DNA of 32,405 nucleotides, taken from IMG/VR virus record IMGVR_UViG_3300033993_002892, positions 1 through 32,405 of that record; one strand, 5' to 3'. This document shows positions 3,082 to 25,042 of this stretch, piece by piece. Position numbers and translations under genes: made by a program. A model generated the notes under the pieces. That model was not told the origin of the DNA and did not search any database. It worked only from the letters and a program-made list of their open reading frames with translations. Numbering within the stretch: the stretch's first letter is position 1; each line of letters begins with the position of its first letter. This DNA is from a virus.

Positions 3082-3366
3082 ATGAAAAAAGTAATTAGAC
3101 TTAATGAAAATGATATAGAAAATCTTGTTAAAAAGATTTTAAAAGAAGATAATAGACCTAGAGGTGGCATTTTATATGGTGGTAGATCCGAAATGATTGA
3201 TGAGGTTGTTAATAGAATTAATGAGTATGGTGAAGAATATACTCAAGAACTTATTAAACTTAACAATAGATTTCCTTCCACTAAATATACAAAAATTAAC
3301 CCTCCAACAAGTGTTGAACTTCCAAAGGGCGTTAAAGTAAGAAGTACTGTTTATCCAAATAAATAA
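3082..3366 (+). CDS. Small protein with putative capsid-targeting N-terminal peptide
   Basis: Protein of 94 aa. The first ~23 residues, MKKVIRLNENDIENLVKKILKED, when read in pieces (KVIRL, then ENLVKKILKE), belong to a type of N terminus shared by otherwise unrelated proteins of large Bacteroidota phages. It ends in ILKE, which fits the (L/I)-x-E cut site of T4-type prohead proteases. The rest (glycine-rich LYGGRSEM, then a helical stretch, then Pro-rich tail) is not recognised. An ATATTTAT box lies upstream inside a palindrome, and a terminator follows the stop at once, so it is a single-gene unit. Function unknown; a virion-internal protein is the best guess. Confidence 0.65.
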   Translation: MKKVIRLNENDIENLVKKILKEDNRPRGGILYGGRSEMIDEVVNRINEYGEEYTQELIKLNNRFPSTKYTKINPPTSVELPKGVKVRSTVYPNK

Positions 3367-18098: not shown

Positions 18099-18242
18099 AT
18101 GGGAAGAAAAAAGAAATATTTAACAGAGGAAGAAAAAATAGAGGCTAACAAACGTTGGTGCATGGAATATTATGAACGTAATAAGGAATTAGTACGTGAA
18201 AAAAATAAAAAAAGATACCATGAAAGAAAAAAAGGAAAATGA
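18099..18242 (+). CDS. Small basic leader protein of the homing endonuclease (47 aa)
   Basis: A 47-residue, highly charged protein: MGRKKKYLTEEEKIEANKRW, then MEYYERNKELVREKNKKRYH. The repeated YYERNKE...EKNKKRY style occurs in short helical DNA-binding extensions of phage homing endonucleases. It has its own box and overlaps the GIY-YIG gene by 23 bases in another frame. It may be a separate small DNA-binding partner, or a domain split from the nuclease by a frameshift. Confidence 0.55.
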   Translation: MGRKKKYLTEEEKIEANKRWCMEYYERNKELVREKNKKRYHERKKGK

Positions 18243-18918
18243 ATTCTATTATGTGTATAAACTAACTAACCCGATAACTGGTGAGTTTTATTTTGGTAGT
18301 AGGAAATCAAAAAAACAGCCACATGAGGATTATAAATATTTAGGTAGTATGAAGACTTGGATTATAGATAAGTCCGTTTTAGTTAAAACAATAATTAAAT
18401 CAGATTTTAAGTCACATGAAGAGTGTGTGATTTATGAAAGTGAAATTATACGTCTAAATATAAATGATATTTTAAATAGGAATTATAATATACCAAATGT
18501 TGGGTTTTATACTAAAGGTAAAAATTGTGGTGGTGATAAAAATTCATTTTACGGTAAAAAACATAGTGAAGAACATAAAAAACTTATATCTAATTTAACT
18601 AAAGGTGAGAAAAACCCATCCTATGGTAAAAAATGGGTTAATAACGGTAAAGAAACCATTTTAATAGAAAAAGAACGGTTAGGTTATTATTTAAACAATG
18701 GTTGGGTGTTTGGTAATTTAAATTCTGTCACATTTAACACTTCCAATAGAAAGTGGGTTAATAATGGTGAAAAAATGTTATATATAAAAGAAGAGGAATT
18801 AAGTTATTATTTAAATAATGGTTGGGTTTCAGGCCGTATTATTACAAATAAAATGTTAGAGGGCAACAAAAAAATAAGTCAAACTTTTAAACTTAGAAAA
18901 ACAAAAAAGGGTGAATAG
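18220..18918 (+). CDS. GIY-YIG homing endonuclease with NUMOD3-like and repeated Trp motifs
   Basis: From the ATG at 18220 the protein has 232 aa (a GTG at 18196 is possible). The GIY-YIG core is YYVYKLTN...FYFGSRKSKK. A NUMOD3-like stretch NSFYGKKHSEEHKKLIS follows near 108-124. Two copies of a ~30-residue unit, KWVNNG-x-x-x-x-x-I-x-x-E-x-x-x-YYLNNGWV-x-G, lie at about 140-170 and 181-211; this repeat is typical of the C-terminal DNA-binding part of such nucleases. It should nick a specific site and spread by homing. The stop codon lies in the loop of a terminator. Confidence 0.85.
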   Translation: MKEKKENEFYYVYKLTNPITGEFYFGSRKSKKQPHEDYKYLGSMKTWIIDKSVLVKTIIKSDFKSHEECVIYESEIIRLNINDILNRNYNIPNVGFYTKGKNCGGDKNSFYGKKHSEEHKKLISNLTKGEKNPSYGKKWVNNGKETILIEKERLGYYLNNGWVFGNLNSVTFNTSNRKWVNNGEKMLYIKEEELSYYLNNGWVSGRIITNKMLEGNKKISQTFKLRKTKKGE

Positions 18919-18932
18919 TTCACCCTTTTTTT
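18903..18932. terminator. Bidirectional terminator, stop codon in loop
   Basis: GGGTGAA / TTCACCC stem with loop TAG (18916-18918), which is the stop of the homing endonuclease gene; A and T runs flank it. It separates this gene from the convergent Ro60 gene. Confidence 0.88.
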
Positions 18933-20523
18933 ACACTGTTACCAACGTATTTTCAACCAAAGTTTTTGACTCGATATCATCCCAAGTAGATATTAATTGT
19001 TTAGCGTATTCAGTCTCACGGCCAGTCCAGCCTCCTAAAACACTTCCTCTGTAAATATTTTCAGGTACAACTGAGTTATTGTAACCAGCTACTTGGACTG
19101 TGAAGACGTTAACTTTTGGGTTAACCTTACTACGGTATTCATCAACCATCTTTAAAACATCAACATAACTGCCACCCTTTTGGTGTATGTCCGCTTTGTT
19201 AATACCTTGTCCGTAAAGACCACCATGCCCTGCTTGCATATCACTATATATAAAGATAGTATCATAGTGAACTTTTTTATCAATTGCTTCACGTAGAAAC
19301 AACCAAATACCGTGTTCACAAGATTGACCTTGTGCTTTACCTCTTTTACAAGTTTCTTCCAACTGAGTAATAATACCGTCTCTTTTAGAAACAGGTTTTA
19401 AACTTAATCTTTCACCAAAAACACCAACATATCCTTCATCAGAACATAATGCTGTGATGATAGAAGATAAGTTCGCAATTTCCGCGATGTGTGTACTTCC
19501 GTATTCAGAAGTCATTTGACCCCAAGAAGAACCTGAGTTATCAGACAAACAAGCCACCTTACCCTTTAATTTAGGAAAGTTTGCTAAGGAGATATCCAAA
19601 CACTCTTGTAAAGTGTCAAGAATTATACCCTTGTGATTAATATTAATATTAACAATTTGCTTATATGCCGTGTAATAACGAAATGGGAATTGTTTACCAT
19701 AAATAACACCACCTTTAAGGTCAGCCATCACTTTTTTAGCCAACTCTGTATCGTTCACCTCAGTAAAAATACCACGAAGGTTTCTTAAAAGAGCCATGTG
19801 TGGAACCTTAATTGTGTTAAGAATCTCCTTCCAAGTTTTACCTTGGGATTTTAAAGACTCCCATGTTTGTTCCGTTTCAGAAACAGCCACGTCACCATTC
19901 TTCATCAACTCATCAATAACTTCAGAGTGTGCGTGAGAAATACGAACCAAGTCAATTAAAGACTTTGATTTGTACTTATGGATTTGGTATCTTCCGAAAG
20001 TAGCCAACTTGTCTGCCCAAGTACGTTTTACGATAGAAGGAAGATTATTCTTAGAACCCTTCAAGAACATGAAGTAATCAAATTGATTGGTAATATCATC
20101 GGGACGACCAACGATTTCCATACCGATTTTCTTCATGAAACCTGGGTTTGCCTCATTAAATTCAACACGTTTCGGGTGTTGAGACGCTCTAATGAATATA
20201 ACCGCTGGGTTAAGTCTCATGAACATTTCGTGACGAAGTTTCACCGCGAACTCAAGAGTGGCTTTGAAATCATAGTCCAATGCGGCATCAATGGTTTTTG
20301 TAAACACATCACTAGTTGTTTCACTTGGATCAGTGTACATACCTAAAATGTCGTGTCTCTTCAACGTTGACAAGTTTGATGGTTTATCATGAGAACCTCT
20401 GTAATAAGAAGGTTCACCAAAGATAGACGATGCTGCCACGATACGTAATGTATCCATTGGGTTCAATGTGTAAGATGTTCCACCATCGAAATTTTCTACT
20501 GCTTTTGATTTGAACTTTGTCAT
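18931..20523 (-). CDS. Ro60/Rsr-like RNA-binding protein (TROVE plus vWA domains)
   Basis: Protein of 530 aa. The N-terminal ~330 residues have the TROVE HEAT-repeat character: YTLNPMDTLRIVAASSIFGE near 18-37, then DYDFKATLEFAVKLRHEMFMRLNP in pieces, then VPHMALLRNLRGIF near 240-253. The C-terminal part is a vWA domain with the metal site LSDNSGSSWG (DxSxS) near 322-331 and IIFIYSDMQAG-type strand YDTIFIYSDMQAGHGG near 417-432. Ro60 rings bind misfolded RNAs and Y RNAs; bacterial Rsr works with Y RNA and exonucleases in RNA decay. A phage copy could redirect RNA turnover. A large structured RNA lies two genes upstream. Confidence 0.88.
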   Translation of the reverse strand: MTKFKSKAVENFDGGTSYTLNPMDTLRIVAASSIFGEPSYYRGSHDKPSNLSTLKRHDILGMYTDPSETTSDVFTKTIDAALDYDFKATLEFAVKLRHEMFMRLNPAVIFIRASQHPKRVEFNEANPGFMKKIGMEIVGRPDDITNQFDYFMFLKGSKNNLPSIVKRTWADKLATFGRYQIHKYKSKSLIDLVRISHAHSEVIDELMKNGDVAVSETEQTWESLKSQGKTWKEILNTIKVPHMALLRNLRGIFTEVNDTELAKKVMADLKGGVIYGKQFPFRYYTAYKQIVNININHKGIILDTLQECLDISLANFPKLKGKVACLSDNSGSSWGQMTSEYGSTHIAEIANLSSIITALCSDEGYVGVFGERLSLKPVSKRDGIITQLEETCKRGKAQGQSCEHGIWLFLREAIDKKVHYDTIFIYSDMQAGHGGLYGQGINKADIHQKGGSYVDVLKMVDEYRSKVNPKVNVFTVQVAGYNNSVVPENIYRGSVLGGWTGRETEYAKQLISTWDDIESKTLVENTLVTV

Positions 20524-20526
20524 AAC

Positions 20527-20862
20527 TTAAAATTTAATTATTAATACGTTTTTATTTAATTCTTCTGCCTTTTTAATTGAGTCTAGGGTACCTTTACTCT
20601 TGCCATCCCAAAAGGCTACTATTAATTCCGATTCATTTATAATATCTGTGTTTCTTAAAAACCCTGCTTTTCTACCGTGTGTTTTCCAATCAGGATAAAA
20701 AATCTTTGTCGGTATTTCATTTAACTTAGCGTACTGTTCACCTAGTGAGTCCGCCCCCATTGCTCCACCTGAAACCAAAAGTGTTATATTCAAAGTTGAT
20801 AAGGTTTCCTTTACCAATTTATAATCACTGAATGTTCTACTACCTATTACTGCTACTTTCAT
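20527..20862 (-). CDS. SLOG-fold nucleotide-binding protein (DUF2493/YspA-like)
   Basis: Protein of 111 aa. VAVIGSRTFSDY at 3-14, LLVSGGAMGADSLGEQYA at 28-45, FYPDWKTHGRKAGFLRN near 55-71 and IVAFWDGKSKGT near 81-92 are the landmarks of the short cpYpsA-related SLOG group. Proteins with this fold bind nucleotide ligands such as NAD or ADP-ribose derivatives; phage members have no settled function. It ends three bases before the Ro60 gene and follows RNA D, so the three probably form one functional unit. Confidence 0.82.
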   Translation of the reverse strand: MKVAVIGSRTFSDYKLVKETLSTLNITLLVSGGAMGADSLGEQYAKLNEIPTKIFYPDWKTHGRKAGFLRNTDIINESELIVAFWDGKSKGTLDSIKKAEELNKNVLIIKF

Positions 20863-20871
20863 GTTAATAAA

Positions 20872-20906
20872 ATAAAAAAGTCCCTACAATTTTACTCGTA
20901 GGGACT
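20872..20906 (-). terminator. Terminator of RNA D, just before the SLOG gene
   Basis: AGTCCCTAC (20879-20887) pairs with GTAGGGACT (20898-20906), followed on the minus strand by a T run. An alternative pairing of the CAGTC arm with GACTG at 20925-20929 would disrupt it, so attenuation is possible. Confidence 0.85.
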
Positions 20907-21002
20907 GTCAGGTCTCACTACCGCAGTCTATGGACCGTGGCGTGGACAATATTAGTTCCTATTGAGTATATTAGATAAAAGTGTTTTGTCGTTTTTCATA
21001 AA

Positions 21003-21028
21003 TTGATGTAACTTTTATCACCGCTTCA
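21003..21028 (-). repeat. Direct repeat R2 in RNA D
   Basis: Minus-strand TGAAGCGGT ... TTACATCAA, partner of 21293-21318; identical flanks with a variable centre. Confidence 0.6.
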
Positions 21029-21124
21029 ACAGAAGATTTTTAGATTCCTTAGAATTACCTGAGAATGTCTCAGAATAATGTTTCTTGTGTTCCCACCTAG
21101 GGGAAAACCAGGAGTAACCCTGAA

Positions 21125-21150
21125 TAGGTTTGAGAGACGCTAATAAACTC
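21125..21150 (-). repeat. Direct repeat R4 in RNA D
   Basis: Partner of 21181-21206, 24 of 26 bases identical. Core GAGTTTATTAGCG, with a GAG/CTC mini-hairpin. Confidence 0.75.
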
Positions 21151-21180
21151 GGGGATTTTAAAGATCCTACCTAAACTTTT

Positions 21181-21206
21181 TAGGTTTTAGAGTCGCTAAT
21201 AAACTC
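21181..21206 (-). repeat. Direct repeat R3 in RNA D
   Basis: Partner of 21125-21150. Core GAGTTTATTAGCG followed by ACTC, forming GAGT/ACTC. Confidence 0.75.
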
Positions 21207-21292
21207 CACAAAGTTACTTCAGATGATACTTTTGGTATCATTGGACTATACCTGTGAGAAAAAGTCCGGTTTCTGAATCATAGTTGTATATT

Positions 21293-21318
21293 TTGATGTA
21301 ATCATCCCAACCGCTTCA
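21293..21318 (-). repeat. Direct repeat R1 in RNA D
   Basis: Partner of 21003-21028 (TGAAGCGGT ... TTACATCAA). Confidence 0.6.
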
Positions 21319-21361
21319 GGTAAACTAAGAAAATCAATATTTTTAAGAACGTTTTGTTTGT

Positions 21362-21392
21362 TAATACTAATCATAAAAAGCGTTTCTGTCAA
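21362..21392 (-). promoter_or_regulatory. Putative promoter of RNA D
   Basis: Minus-strand TTG (21390-21392; context TTGACAG), 20-base spacer, TAGTATTA (21362-21369). The -7 box is imperfect, but TTGACAG and the spacing match the promoters of RNAs B and C. It overlaps the terminator of the gene upstream. Confidence 0.45.
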
Positions 21393-21835: not shown

Positions 21836-21865
21836 AAAAAAAGGGGTCACCCCCTTTTTTTTTTA
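21836..21865 (-). terminator. Terminator of the adhesin operon
   Basis: GGGG-TCAC-CCCC hairpin flanked by A7 and T10 runs. The stop codon of the 1059-aa gene is in the T-rich side. Confidence 0.75.
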
Positions 21866-24800
21866 TTTTAATAATGTAACATGTCCGACTATTTCACGTC
21901 TAATACCTTTTATATCTATTATGGTTAATTTATAAACATAAATTTGGTCCTGACATAATGTACCTTTAAAAGTACCGTCCCATTCTTTATTTGAAGCATT
22001 ATGAATAACACTACCCCAGCGGTCAAAAATCATGATATCATAATTTTTTATTCCACTACCTTTTGGTTTAAAAGTTTCATTTATACCATCTCCGTTTGGT
22101 GAAAATGAATTAGGTACCCAAATTAACAATTCTTCATCAATTGTTAAAACTTTAACCACTGTGTCTTTACAACCATGTTCACTTACTAACATTAAACTAA
22201 TAGGATAATTACCAGGTGTTTCATAAACTTGTTCTGGGTTCTTAACCATTGAAGTTGAGTCTTCGTTTAATTGCCAAAACCAACTTTGAATATTCATTTG
22301 TTGTTCTGCTGGGTAAAAAGTTACTTTGTTATCAGAAACATGGTTTGGCATATTAGGTGACCAATTAAAATCAGCATTTGGTTTTGGGTACACAGTTAAT
22401 ACGTTACCGTATTTAAAAGTTTCTTTACAACCATTTTTACCAATTGTAGTGATTTTTAAATCATAATTACCTGAATTTAAACAAATGTTGATACTATCAC
22501 CCATAAATGATTTACCATTAAAATCATATGTTACAAGATTAGATAAGTTTTTAACTTTTGAATCATATAAAAAACAAAAAGGTTCACAAACATTATTTTT
22601 ATCTAAATTCAATGTTGGTTGTGGAGCTGCGTTAACTGAAAGTGTAACTGGAGTATATATGGTGTAAGTAGGACAAGATACGTCATAAACACTAACATTA
22701 TATATCATAGTACCCATAGCTACACCTGTTTGTATGCCACTATTAGGTGTTGTTAAATAAACACTAGGTTCCCAATTATAAGCGTAATTACCACTTCCGT
22801 TGTCCGCTTGTGTGGTTAAAGTAAAACTATCCCCTTTACAAAGAGTTTTATTAGTGGGTACATTTTTCCAAACAATAGGATTAAGTACTTGTAAGTTAGT
22901 GGTGCCGTATGTTTTACACCCATTTAAATCAACAGTTAAAGTATAATTACCTACGTTTGATAGATTAACGTTAGGTATAAATAAATTTTGTGTGTTTGAA
23001 TTATACCCAGGTCCTATCCAAGTATAAGAAGAACCACCTAACGGACCATCAATTGTGTATAGACTGTTATAACATAATTGAGTGTATGGGGTTAATGTAA
23101 AATTAATTTTAGGGTTAACCACTAAAGTAGTTGTGTTTGTGTTGTAACAAGTTAAATTTCCGTTTGTAAATGCCACTGTAACTACATAATTACCGTTCCA
23201 ACTCGGATTTAAATTTTGAAAATAAGTCGTTGGTTGAGTGACATTAAAACCGTTTGGTCCTGCCCATGTATATGAAATAGCCCCTTGAGCATTAGCGGTT
23301 AAAGTGGCGTTATCGTTTTCACAAACATTTATCAAAGATACAACACTTACTGTATTAACTGGTACTACAGACAAATTAGTCATGTTAGAAGTCACACAAG
23401 ATACGGTTCCTATACTCCAAACAGCGTTTACGGAATAATTTCCAGAAACAAAAGGTTGTATATTGTTAAATGTTAATGTTTGTTGTTGTAAATTAAAATT
23501 ATTTGGTCCAAACCAATTGTATGTTGGGTTAGCTGATGCCGATGCTGTTACAATTATACCGTTAGAGTTTTGACAAACATTTTGTGGTAAAGAAACAGAT
23601 ACAGGATTCATTGGTACTATTGAAACGTTTGAAACCGCGGTTGAACTACAAACTAATGTTGTTTGACTACTTGAAAAATAAGCGGTCACAGAGTAATCAC
23701 CTGAAATTGTGGGTGTAACGTTAACTAAACTTGGGTTTGGTAAGTTACTTGTATAGGCGTTAGGCCCGTTCCACGTATATGACGTAGCTCCGTTTACAAA
23801 AGCGTTTAAATTAATATTTGTACCCTGACATTGGGTGTAAGAAGGTGTTACAACAACTTGTGCTACTGGTACTACGGCCGCACTTGAAGAAGAAAAAGCT
23901 TTGCATTGACCCCCATTTGTAAAAGTACTTGTTACAGTAAAATTATATAAACCAGTATTAACAGGTTGTGCAGGGTTAAAACTTATAGATTGTGTGTTAG
24001 CCACAAAGTTATTAGGTCCTGTCCATGAATAAGTCATAGAACCCCCACCTGTCACTGTGTTATTAAAATTTAAAACACTTCCTTGACAAACAGGTCCGTT
24101 GTTAGTTATTGATGTTGACGGATTTGGGTTAACCCAAACTTGAATCGTATTTGTTCCATTACACCCACAACCGTTTGGTGGTGTAACATTTAAAGTATAA
24201 ACACCACTTTGTAAAACATTTGTGGCAGTAAAAGTAGGACTTAATACAGAACTTGTGTAATTCATAGGTCCTGTCCATGTGTAAGTATAAGTGTTAGGTG
24301 TACAAGTACCCGAACCAGGTCCCAACAAAATAGACGCGTTTAATGAAACAACACCACCGATACAAACAGGTGAGTTACTTGTTAAATTAATAGTCATAGT
24401 ACTTGGACTACTATTAACGTAAACATAGTATTCTTCAGTCTCACCATAACTATAAGAAGTACAAGGTTGAATGAAGTTACCTGAACTAGAATAAACACAT
24501 CTAACTCTCATCCTATAAGTTCCTGCCGGTACTGTTGGTACTGTCCAAGCTGGCATAGGTGCGAACACACCAGCAGGAGGAGTAACACCTGTCTGAGTAA
24601 CTCTTTCACCACCAGGAACTGCTCCTGTAAAAGCCGCTTGATTATAAACCCCGTCATTATTCCAATCAACGAACACCGCACATCCTTGAGCGAATGTAAT
24701 ACCTGATTGAAAATTACTTGTTATCACTTGTCCTGGTGAACATATCATGTAATATTGACAACCCCAAAGACGGTAGTTTCTCATGTTACCACTTAGAACT

Positions 24801-25042
24801 TGAGCATTACAACCTGAATTATTATTAACAATGTTAAATGTCGCACCCGCAGTGTTGTAACTGTTGATGAAATCATTCACACTGTTACCAGGTGAATTTG
24901 AAGGTCCGAATTGATTACATGGTTGGTTAAAGTAAATCGGCATACAATAAGGTGCTGGACCAACACCTACTTGTGATTTTGAAATTCGTGGGATAAATAC
25001 AACTATTGCAGTTAAAATCCCTAATATAATTTTTTTAATCAT
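21863..25042 (-). CDS. Secreted multi-domain adhesin-like protein with type IX (type B) sorting domain
   Basis: Protein of 1059 aa. A signal peptide (MIKKIILGILTAIVVFI...KSQ) is followed by a GEVED domain at about 95-210 (VFVDWNNDGVYN ... GETEEYYVYV). Seven or so Ig/PKD-like repeats of ~80 residues come next, each with a Cys near the start and a T-W-x-GPN core (for example YTWAGPNGFN, YNWFGPNNFN). A PKD domain lies near 880-960. The last ~90 residues, VPNSFSPNGDGINE, IFDRWGSVI, WDGTF and the final VGHVTLLK, are the CHU_C domain recognised by the type IX secretion system. It should be exported to the host surface or medium. This is a host-style protein inside a phage. Confidence 0.9.
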   Translation of the reverse strand: MIKKIILGILTAIVVFIPRISKSQVGVGPAPYCMPIYFNQPCNQFGPSNSPGNSVNDFINSYNTAGATFNIVNNNSGCNAQVLSGNMRNYRLWGCQYYMICSPGQVITSNFQSGITFAQGCAVFVDWNNDGVYNQAAFTGAVPGGERVTQTGVTPPAGVFAPMPAWTVPTVPAGTYRMRVRCVYSSSGNFIQPCTSYSYGETEEYYVYVNSSPSTMTINLTSNSPVCIGGVVSLNASILLGPGSGTCTPNTYTYTWTGPMNYTSSVLSPTFTATNVLQSGVYTLNVTPPNGCGCNGTNTIQVWVNPNPSTSITNNGPVCQGSVLNFNNTVTGGGSMTYSWTGPNNFVANTQSISFNPAQPVNTGLYNFTVTSTFTNGGQCKAFSSSSAAVVPVAQVVVTPSYTQCQGTNINLNAFVNGATSYTWNGPNAYTSNLPNPSLVNVTPTISGDYSVTAYFSSSQTTLVCSSTAVSNVSIVPMNPVSVSLPQNVCQNSNGIIVTASASANPTYNWFGPNNFNLQQQTLTFNNIQPFVSGNYSVNAVWSIGTVSCVTSNMTNLSVVPVNTVSVVSLINVCENDNATLTANAQGAISYTWAGPNGFNVTQPTTYFQNLNPSWNGNYVVTVAFTNGNLTCYNTNTTTLVVNPKINFTLTPYTQLCYNSLYTIDGPLGGSSYTWIGPGYNSNTQNLFIPNVNLSNVGNYTLTVDLNGCKTYGTTNLQVLNPIVWKNVPTNKTLCKGDSFTLTTQADNGSGNYAYNWEPSVYLTTPNSGIQTGVAMGTMIYNVSVYDVSCPTYTIYTPVTLSVNAAPQPTLNLDKNNVCEPFCFLYDSKVKNLSNLVTYDFNGKSFMGDSINICLNSGNYDLKITTIGKNGCKETFKYGNVLTVYPKPNADFNWSPNMPNHVSDNKVTFYPAEQQMNIQSWFWQLNEDSTSMVKNPEQVYETPGNYPISLMLVSEHGCKDTVVKVLTIDEELLIWVPNSFSPNGDGINETFKPKGSGIKNYDIMIFDRWGSVIHNASNKEWDGTFKGTLCQDQIYVYKLTIIDIKGIRREIVGHVTLLK

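Follow-up and report, generated by a model that had tools for sequence, protein, structure and literature searches.

A conserved, noncoding RNA beside the Ro60 gene of a virus is very probably a phage Y-type RNA and the partner of the adjacent phage Ro60, as judged by comparison with related loci and with bacterial YrlA. The RNA lies in a 32-kb virus record (IMGVR_UViG_3300033993_002892; the window below is this whole stretch of 32,405 nt) and is built from two copies, A and B, of one RNA module, the first of which carries a large apical insert. The basal stem of the module covaries, is tied to Ro60 genes in phages of different hosts and has the topology of the YrlA stem that binds Ro60.

A conserved noncoding RNA and its Ro60 neighbour

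The original prediction had placed a structured element here between a promoter-like site and a perfect terminator, and the element is real at that place (Table 1). The strand, which had not been given, is the minus strand, as for the neighbouring genes including Ro60, and the length is ~485 nt. The promoter region, 'GTATTGACAG...TTTTTAT...TAGTATTAAC', is kept in the relatives L004, L005, L007, L008 and L014 and occurs as a variant in L012, while the terminator is kept in all six distinct relatives according to their consensus fold. In other phage contigs, blastn detected homologues upstream of the Ro60 gene, and the predicted folding of the element beats that of shuffled sequences on both strands (z -3.5). 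The sole notable open reading frame (48 aa, TTG start) runs through module A and the first repeat; its frame and start are broken in the relatives, and a protein-coding origin of the repeats was rejected. Another long, structured-looking noncoding stretch was seen between tRNAs in L007 (4100-4440), upstream of the two-module RNA.

Table 1. Features of the RNA locus in the window; parts of the modules are listed in 5' to 3' order of the RNA.
Feature	Position	Strand	Basis
Phage Ro60 (TROVE), presumed protein partner	18931..20523	-	Pfam TROVE, 32.7 bits vs cut-off 23
Intervening YspA/SLOG-family gene, outside the RNA	20527..20862	-	Pfam YAcAr PF10686, E 4.6e-13
Noncoding two-module RNA, probably Y-type	20873..21357, ends approximate	-	blastn homologues, consensus fold, ORF unconserved
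Promoter-like site TTGACA-17-TAGTAT, 5' of RNA	21364..21392	-	10/12 consensus letters; consensus match only
Intrinsic terminator hairpin AGTCCCTACGAGTAAAATTGTAGGGACT	20879..20906, then T6 to 20873	-	11 pairs, loop 6
Module A	21053..21326	-	P1/P2 in consensus of six relatives; halves located by script
Module A: P1 5' strand	21326-21316
Module A: GAAGCGG	21317-21311
Module A: UACAUC	21300-21295
Module A: insert	21294-21080
Module A: P2', AUUCUC and P1'	21079-21053
Apical insert of module A, 215 nt, holds R3/R4	21080..21294	-	no Rfam match
Inner direct repeat copy (R3/R4)	21125..21150	-	92% to partner
Inner direct repeat copy (R3/R4), hairpin GAGUU-7 nt-GACUC	21181..21206	-	repeat comparison
Module B, complete simple stem of Ro60-binding type	20956..21036	-	covariance model R1
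Module B: P1, GAAGCGG, P2, UACAUC, 22-nt loop, P2', UAAUAUAC, P1'	GAAGCGG 21027-21021; UACAUC 21010-21005

The second gene 3' of the RNA has a Pfam TROVE domain, which bears out the Ro60 gene predicted two genes downstream. Its product shares 51% identity with gp540 of Bacillus phage G and 86% with the Ro60 of L008 and L009. An AlphaFold2 model (pLDDT 81) matches the phage, Deinococcus and Xenopus Ro60/Rsr structures 9kop, 9l5y, 2nvo and 1yvp (E 4e-15 to 1e-10), and the DNSGS motif (MIDAS) is conserved in the Ro60 alignment. By sequence and predicted fold, the neighbour thus belongs to the Ro60 class, with a TROVE domain, a HEAT-repeat ring and a vWA fold with MIDAS. Both its profile and its predicted fold match Ro60 of Thermus phage phiLo (PDB 9l5y, 9kop), although identity in the fold search is 19-20%.

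Two further genes of the window may be mentioned. A phage-encoded protein of 1059 aa at 21863-25042 (-) has GEVED and PKD/Ig repeats and a CHU_C type IX secretion signal, which suggests a Bacteroidota host; a NUMOD3-bearing protein (a motif of homing-endonuclease type) is encoded on the opposite strand (+) at 18196-18918, just past Ro60. Elsewhere in the phage set, Ro60 frames with one in-frame stop occur at L090 4517-6154 (-) and in contigs G013, G016, G017, G019, G025 and G004, and suppressor-like tRNAs with anticodon tta in some phages (L047 2249; phage G, L022 8468). Stop recoding is possible in the Ro60 frames concerned.

The nested direct repeats of the original prediction were both recovered by repeat comparison. 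The outer pair (R1/R2; 20998-21028 and 21288-21318) is 71% identical over 31 nt and represents the two copies of the module, whose parts follow in the order P1, GAAGCGG, P2, UACWUC, apical insert, P2', AUWnUCUC, P1'. The two copies are homologous rather than alike by chance, because one of them, module B, scores 74.1 bits (E 3.9e-17 over the window) with the covariance model R1 described below, among whose 30 training sequences it is included. Module A is weak as a contiguous match to the model owing to its insert. RNAalifold recovered both modules and the terminator from the six distinct relatives without prior knowledge of the unit and likewise predicted an extension of the outer helix of module A.

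The insert measures 176-237 nt in the relatives, and many other phages have inserts of 100-240 nt, homologous or analogous, in their first module, with one or two simple units after it. The inner pair of repeats (R3/R4, 26 nt each) is limited to the window RNA and the relatives L004/L005 and L008, i.e., to three of the six relative types; the hairpin in one copy shows one double change among its pairs in the consensus of relatives. The six window-type relatives, of which three have R3/R4, yielded no secure consensus structure for the insert, which we regard as a putative structured domain of about 215 nt.

A covarying module tied to phage Ro60

A DNA search with the element matched an unannotated stretch just upstream of the Ro60 gene of Bacillus phage G, and one recurrent unit, the module, was found when the upstream regions of 16 Ro60 relatives were compared. 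Sequence-pattern scans of 2.9 million viral contigs gave 27 distinct representatives of this unit. In these, the outer P1 positions, which were free of any selection on pairing, pair at 4.93 of 6 positions, compared with 2.75 when partners are mismatched. In an alignment of 30 modules, 88% of the cells are paired and 125 double changes occur, against 65% and 42 after shuffling. The covariation score of 0.616 (shuffled, 0.202) was reached by none of 500 shuffles, and every slid control remained at or below 0.25. Homologues from related phages, to which the original prediction had pointed as a source of covariation, therefore show strong covariation in the stems of the module, and the P1/P2 basal stem is real.

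The covariance model R1 was built from these 30 modules. With it, chance pattern matches in coding DNA do not exceed 23 bits, and those within coding genes (L024, L026, L040, L041, L044, L052, L053, L057 and L097; up to 22.5 bits) were dropped. Bacterial genomes are essentially free of the module: a scan of 84,980 genomes returned seven pattern matches, six of which are chance matches of at most 23 bits. The only strong module among them, L111, lies on a Ruminococcus MAG contig with a phage-G-like Ro60 and is probably on a phage contig.

The module is strictly linked to Ro60 across phages of different hosts. It is present at 76 of 77 phage Ro60 loci that were gathered by protein profile alone and then scanned, with their flanks, with model R1, although part of these loci come from phages that also supplied training modules. 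All 159 matches are on the Ro60 strand, 106 of them upstream and 53 downstream of the gene; the module lies within 1 kb of Ro60 at 70 loci, and 46 loci have two or more modules. When 18 module-bearing contigs were searched as a whole, nine had a Ro60 gene, the other nine being fragments of less than 60 kb.

The cultured phage G shares both the module and the Ro60 neighbour with the window, but differs in having five tandem modules and two others, all unannotated in its record. Its seven modules are found within 405190-412842 of the 497-kb genome, around Ro60 at 407414. The five tandem units (406667-407293; L022 3203-3829) occupy the 1-kb gap directly upstream of gp540, with a further, YrlA-like unit at 405190 and one more unit at 412772.

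The linkage extends to distant phages. In Arthrobacter phage Atuin, modules of 42 and 39 bits flank a Ro60 that is only 23% identical. A TROVE gene is accompanied by a module (29 bits) and a YrlA-type RNA in Streptomyces phage BRock, and by a weak module (15 bits, E 0.17) and a YrlA-type RNA in Rhizobium phage TM30. No clear R1 module was found near the TROVE genes of crAss-like phages, Thermus phage phiLo, Caulobacter CcrColossus and Xanthomonas Olaya; the latter two have YrlA-like RNAs. The tRNA array of phage BRock also holds a manA RNA motif (L207 5914-6077), which at 49.7 bits is below the gathering score of 55.2.

Relation to YrlA and to other structured RNAs

YrlA is a Y RNA whose basal stem binds Rsr/Ro60 and whose tRNA-like domain binds PNPase; Y RNAs and YrlA measure 90-150 nt (PMC8394870). 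Both YrlA and the window RNA adjoin a Ro60/Rsr gene and have a long basal stem of two helices and an asymmetric internal loop, with P1 closed by GA/UC and UAC after P2. In the true YrlA of the bacterial loci L120 and L121, as in the Rfam model, the GA/UC-closed P1 is followed by a junction of 5 nt, P2 and UAC, with 8 nt on the returning side; the phage module has a 5' junction of about 5-7 nt and ~8 nt on the 3' side. The topology of the module is thus that of the Ro60-binding stem of YrlA. A tandem of three YrlA-type matches, only the middle one near the Rfam cut-off, was also noted in a gammaproteobacterial genome (L121 1286-1780).

Differences are likewise evident. The window RNA has two stems where YrlA has one, is about 485 nt long, and bears a domain of 215 nt in place of a tRNA-like one; a tRNA-like effector domain was sought in the window RNA and not found. 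The conserved letters are GAAGCGG..UACWUC..AUWnUCUC in the module, compared with GAAUGC..CUAC..AAACUUGUC in YrlA. The window RNA does not match the Rfam model RF02553 (gathering cut-off 69 bits) even at E<=10, and the best match of model R1 at true bacterial YrlA loci is one of 7 bits, elsewhere than the YrlA RNA. By Rfam score, size and tRNA-like domain, the window RNA is not a member of YrlA. It had been described as much larger than known Y RNAs; its size, however, does not place it outside the Y RNA class, since it results from two Y-type stems and the insert. The shared topology, a few shared letters and a series of chimeric relatives suggest that the module is homologous to the YrlA stem.

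These sister RNAs score 32-36 bits with RF02553, below its cut-off. Since ordinary neighbouring tRNAs also match RF02553 in 13 of 14 control genomes, such a match is weak evidence on its own, and only those framed by module halves were counted. In phage G, positions 405190-405351 score 44 bits with model R1 and 405233-405319 score 36 bits (E 6e-7) with RF02553; L054 3506-3659 is matched by both models, RF02553 being aligned over its full length (1-114) with both stems included. As in YrlA, the apical part of these two RNAs, and of those in L045 and L067, is a permuted tRNA (3' half, linker, 5' half), and both models recognise these RNAs, RF02553 below its cut-off. In L038/L047, L103 and G006 (37110), the tRNA-like parts are linked via the acceptor end. 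In L047 4222-4360, a tRNA-like RNA with its parts in normal order has a circularly permuted unit in place of the anticodon arm, and a GUAA tetraloop closes P1. The permutations preserve the spatial plan, which speaks for the stem and the tRNA-like domain being genuine parts that can be separated. L008 and L009, whose Ro60 is close to that of the window, come from contigs of 318 and 132 kb, where a tRNA-like unit of this kind is present as well. Y-type units are interspersed in the tRNA arrays of L054/L032, L045, L050 and L067 (contigs G001, G003 and G004), some of them with permuted tRNA-like domains and anticodon-like triplets.

At gathering scores, the matches of Rfam 15 in the window are tRNAs only, and a search of the element at E<=10 gave nothing credible; Y RNA, GOLLD, ROOL and group I introns, the families named in the original prediction, are all without a match. 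The stretch GGUAUAGUCC resembled a core element of group I introns, but Rfam found nothing, the stretch is unconserved, and the candidate was rejected. Group II introns had no Rfam match at either threshold, and a SNORD79 snoRNA-like match (E 0.035, under the cut-off) was dismissed as AT-rich chance similarity.

Function, alternatives and implications

Y RNA and Ro60 workings in prokaryotes are known mainly from Deinococcus, where Y RNAs gate the RNA-binding ring of Ro60. Each module is predicted to be a Ro60-binding stem, the phage counterpart of the YrlA basal stem, composed of a P1 closed by the invariant GA/UC, an asymmetric internal loop (AGCGG / AUAnUCU), P2 and UACWUC. Module B would hold one Ro60 ring and module A a second one, with the 215-nt domain at the apex of A, where YrlA and many sister phage RNAs bear their tRNA-like effector domain. 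Transcription of the RNA would start at its own promoter and end at its own terminator. The RNA would recruit Ro60, possibly in two copies, as Y RNA biology suggests, and either present its inserted domain to an effector or gate the ring as in Deinococcus. The phiLo Ro60, a solved phage structure, was deposited as a dimer (9l5y), which may hint, at most suggestively, at a two-stem RNA with two Ro60.

A new Ro60 partner was one of the two identities originally proposed, and we infer it from the covarying module, its presence at Ro60 loci, the common strand and the YrlA topology. The other, a GOLLD/ROOL-type large phage RNA or some structural RNA that merely lies beside Ro60, would account for large size, ornate fold and phage origin. 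GOLLD and ROOL are indeed large structured phage RNAs, but the window RNA matches neither in Rfam and has another anatomy and gene linkage; furthermore, the module is strictly tied to Ro60 and in many phages suffices alone. We therefore consider this identity extremely improbable.

The constant strand and the mostly close upstream position of the modules would also suit an element of the Ro60 operon that acts in cis as leader or attenuator, with Ro60 regulating its own synthesis by binding to the modules of its transcript. We regard this as very improbable, since the window RNA has its own perfect terminator, the SLOG gene separates it from Ro60, and one third of the modules are downstream of Ro60; modules are also found in tRNA arrays kilobases away, as in G028 (module at 21048, Ro60 at 3170). 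Slightly less probable still, in our view, is a role in tRNA processing or repair, in which permuted tRNA genes would release the module in the manner of an intron to give working tRNAs. Modules do sit in tRNA arrays and frame permuted tRNA halves in phage G (1733), L054, L045 and L067, some with anticodon-like triplets and a CCA end. Many modules, however, lack any tRNA part, among them the two of the window and five of phage G; the anticodon stems of the tRNA-like parts appear poor by eye, and L047 4222 has the reversed order with the module closed by GUAA. The topology is moreover that of YrlA, which to our knowledge remains unspliced. Autoregulation by Ro60 and a role in tRNA splicing are less likely than a Y-type partner of Ro60 acting in trans, but Ro60 might regulate its own synthesis alongside such a trans role.

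Phages carrying YrlA have been reported (PMC7765460), and TROVE proteins of jumbo phages were noted together with a tRNA-like partner (PMC7824862). In the literature consulted, which did not include the central Y RNA papers from 2014, 2018 and 2020, we found no mention of the stem class of the module, of Y RNAs with several stems or of the inserted domain. Phage Y RNAs as such are known, whereas the multi-module build, a stem class for which Rfam has no model, and the inserted domain look new. They suggest that the Ro60-RNA machines of giant phages are of the phages' own making and more elaborate. It is conceivable, though we incline slightly against it, that large phages use multivalent Y RNA scaffolds with two to five Ro60 stems per transcript and a freely swapped effector domain, which may be absent, tRNA-like (permuted, acceptor-linked or reversed) or a large new domain such as the one of 215 nt. 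Several Ro60 rings would then be arranged around an effector other than PNPase, and the assembly might serve tRNA or RNA quality control in the infected cell.

The phage set provides well over a hundred Ro60-linked copies of a compact, covarying stem of Ro60-binding type, and model R1 supplies a covariance model where Rfam has none. The many natural swaps and circular permutations make stem and effector domain separable by experiment, and in the cultured phage G the reading of the module as Y-type is directly testable. The set also suggests RNAs able to hold more than one Ro60 and points to a phage use of Ro60 that is linked to tRNA arrays.
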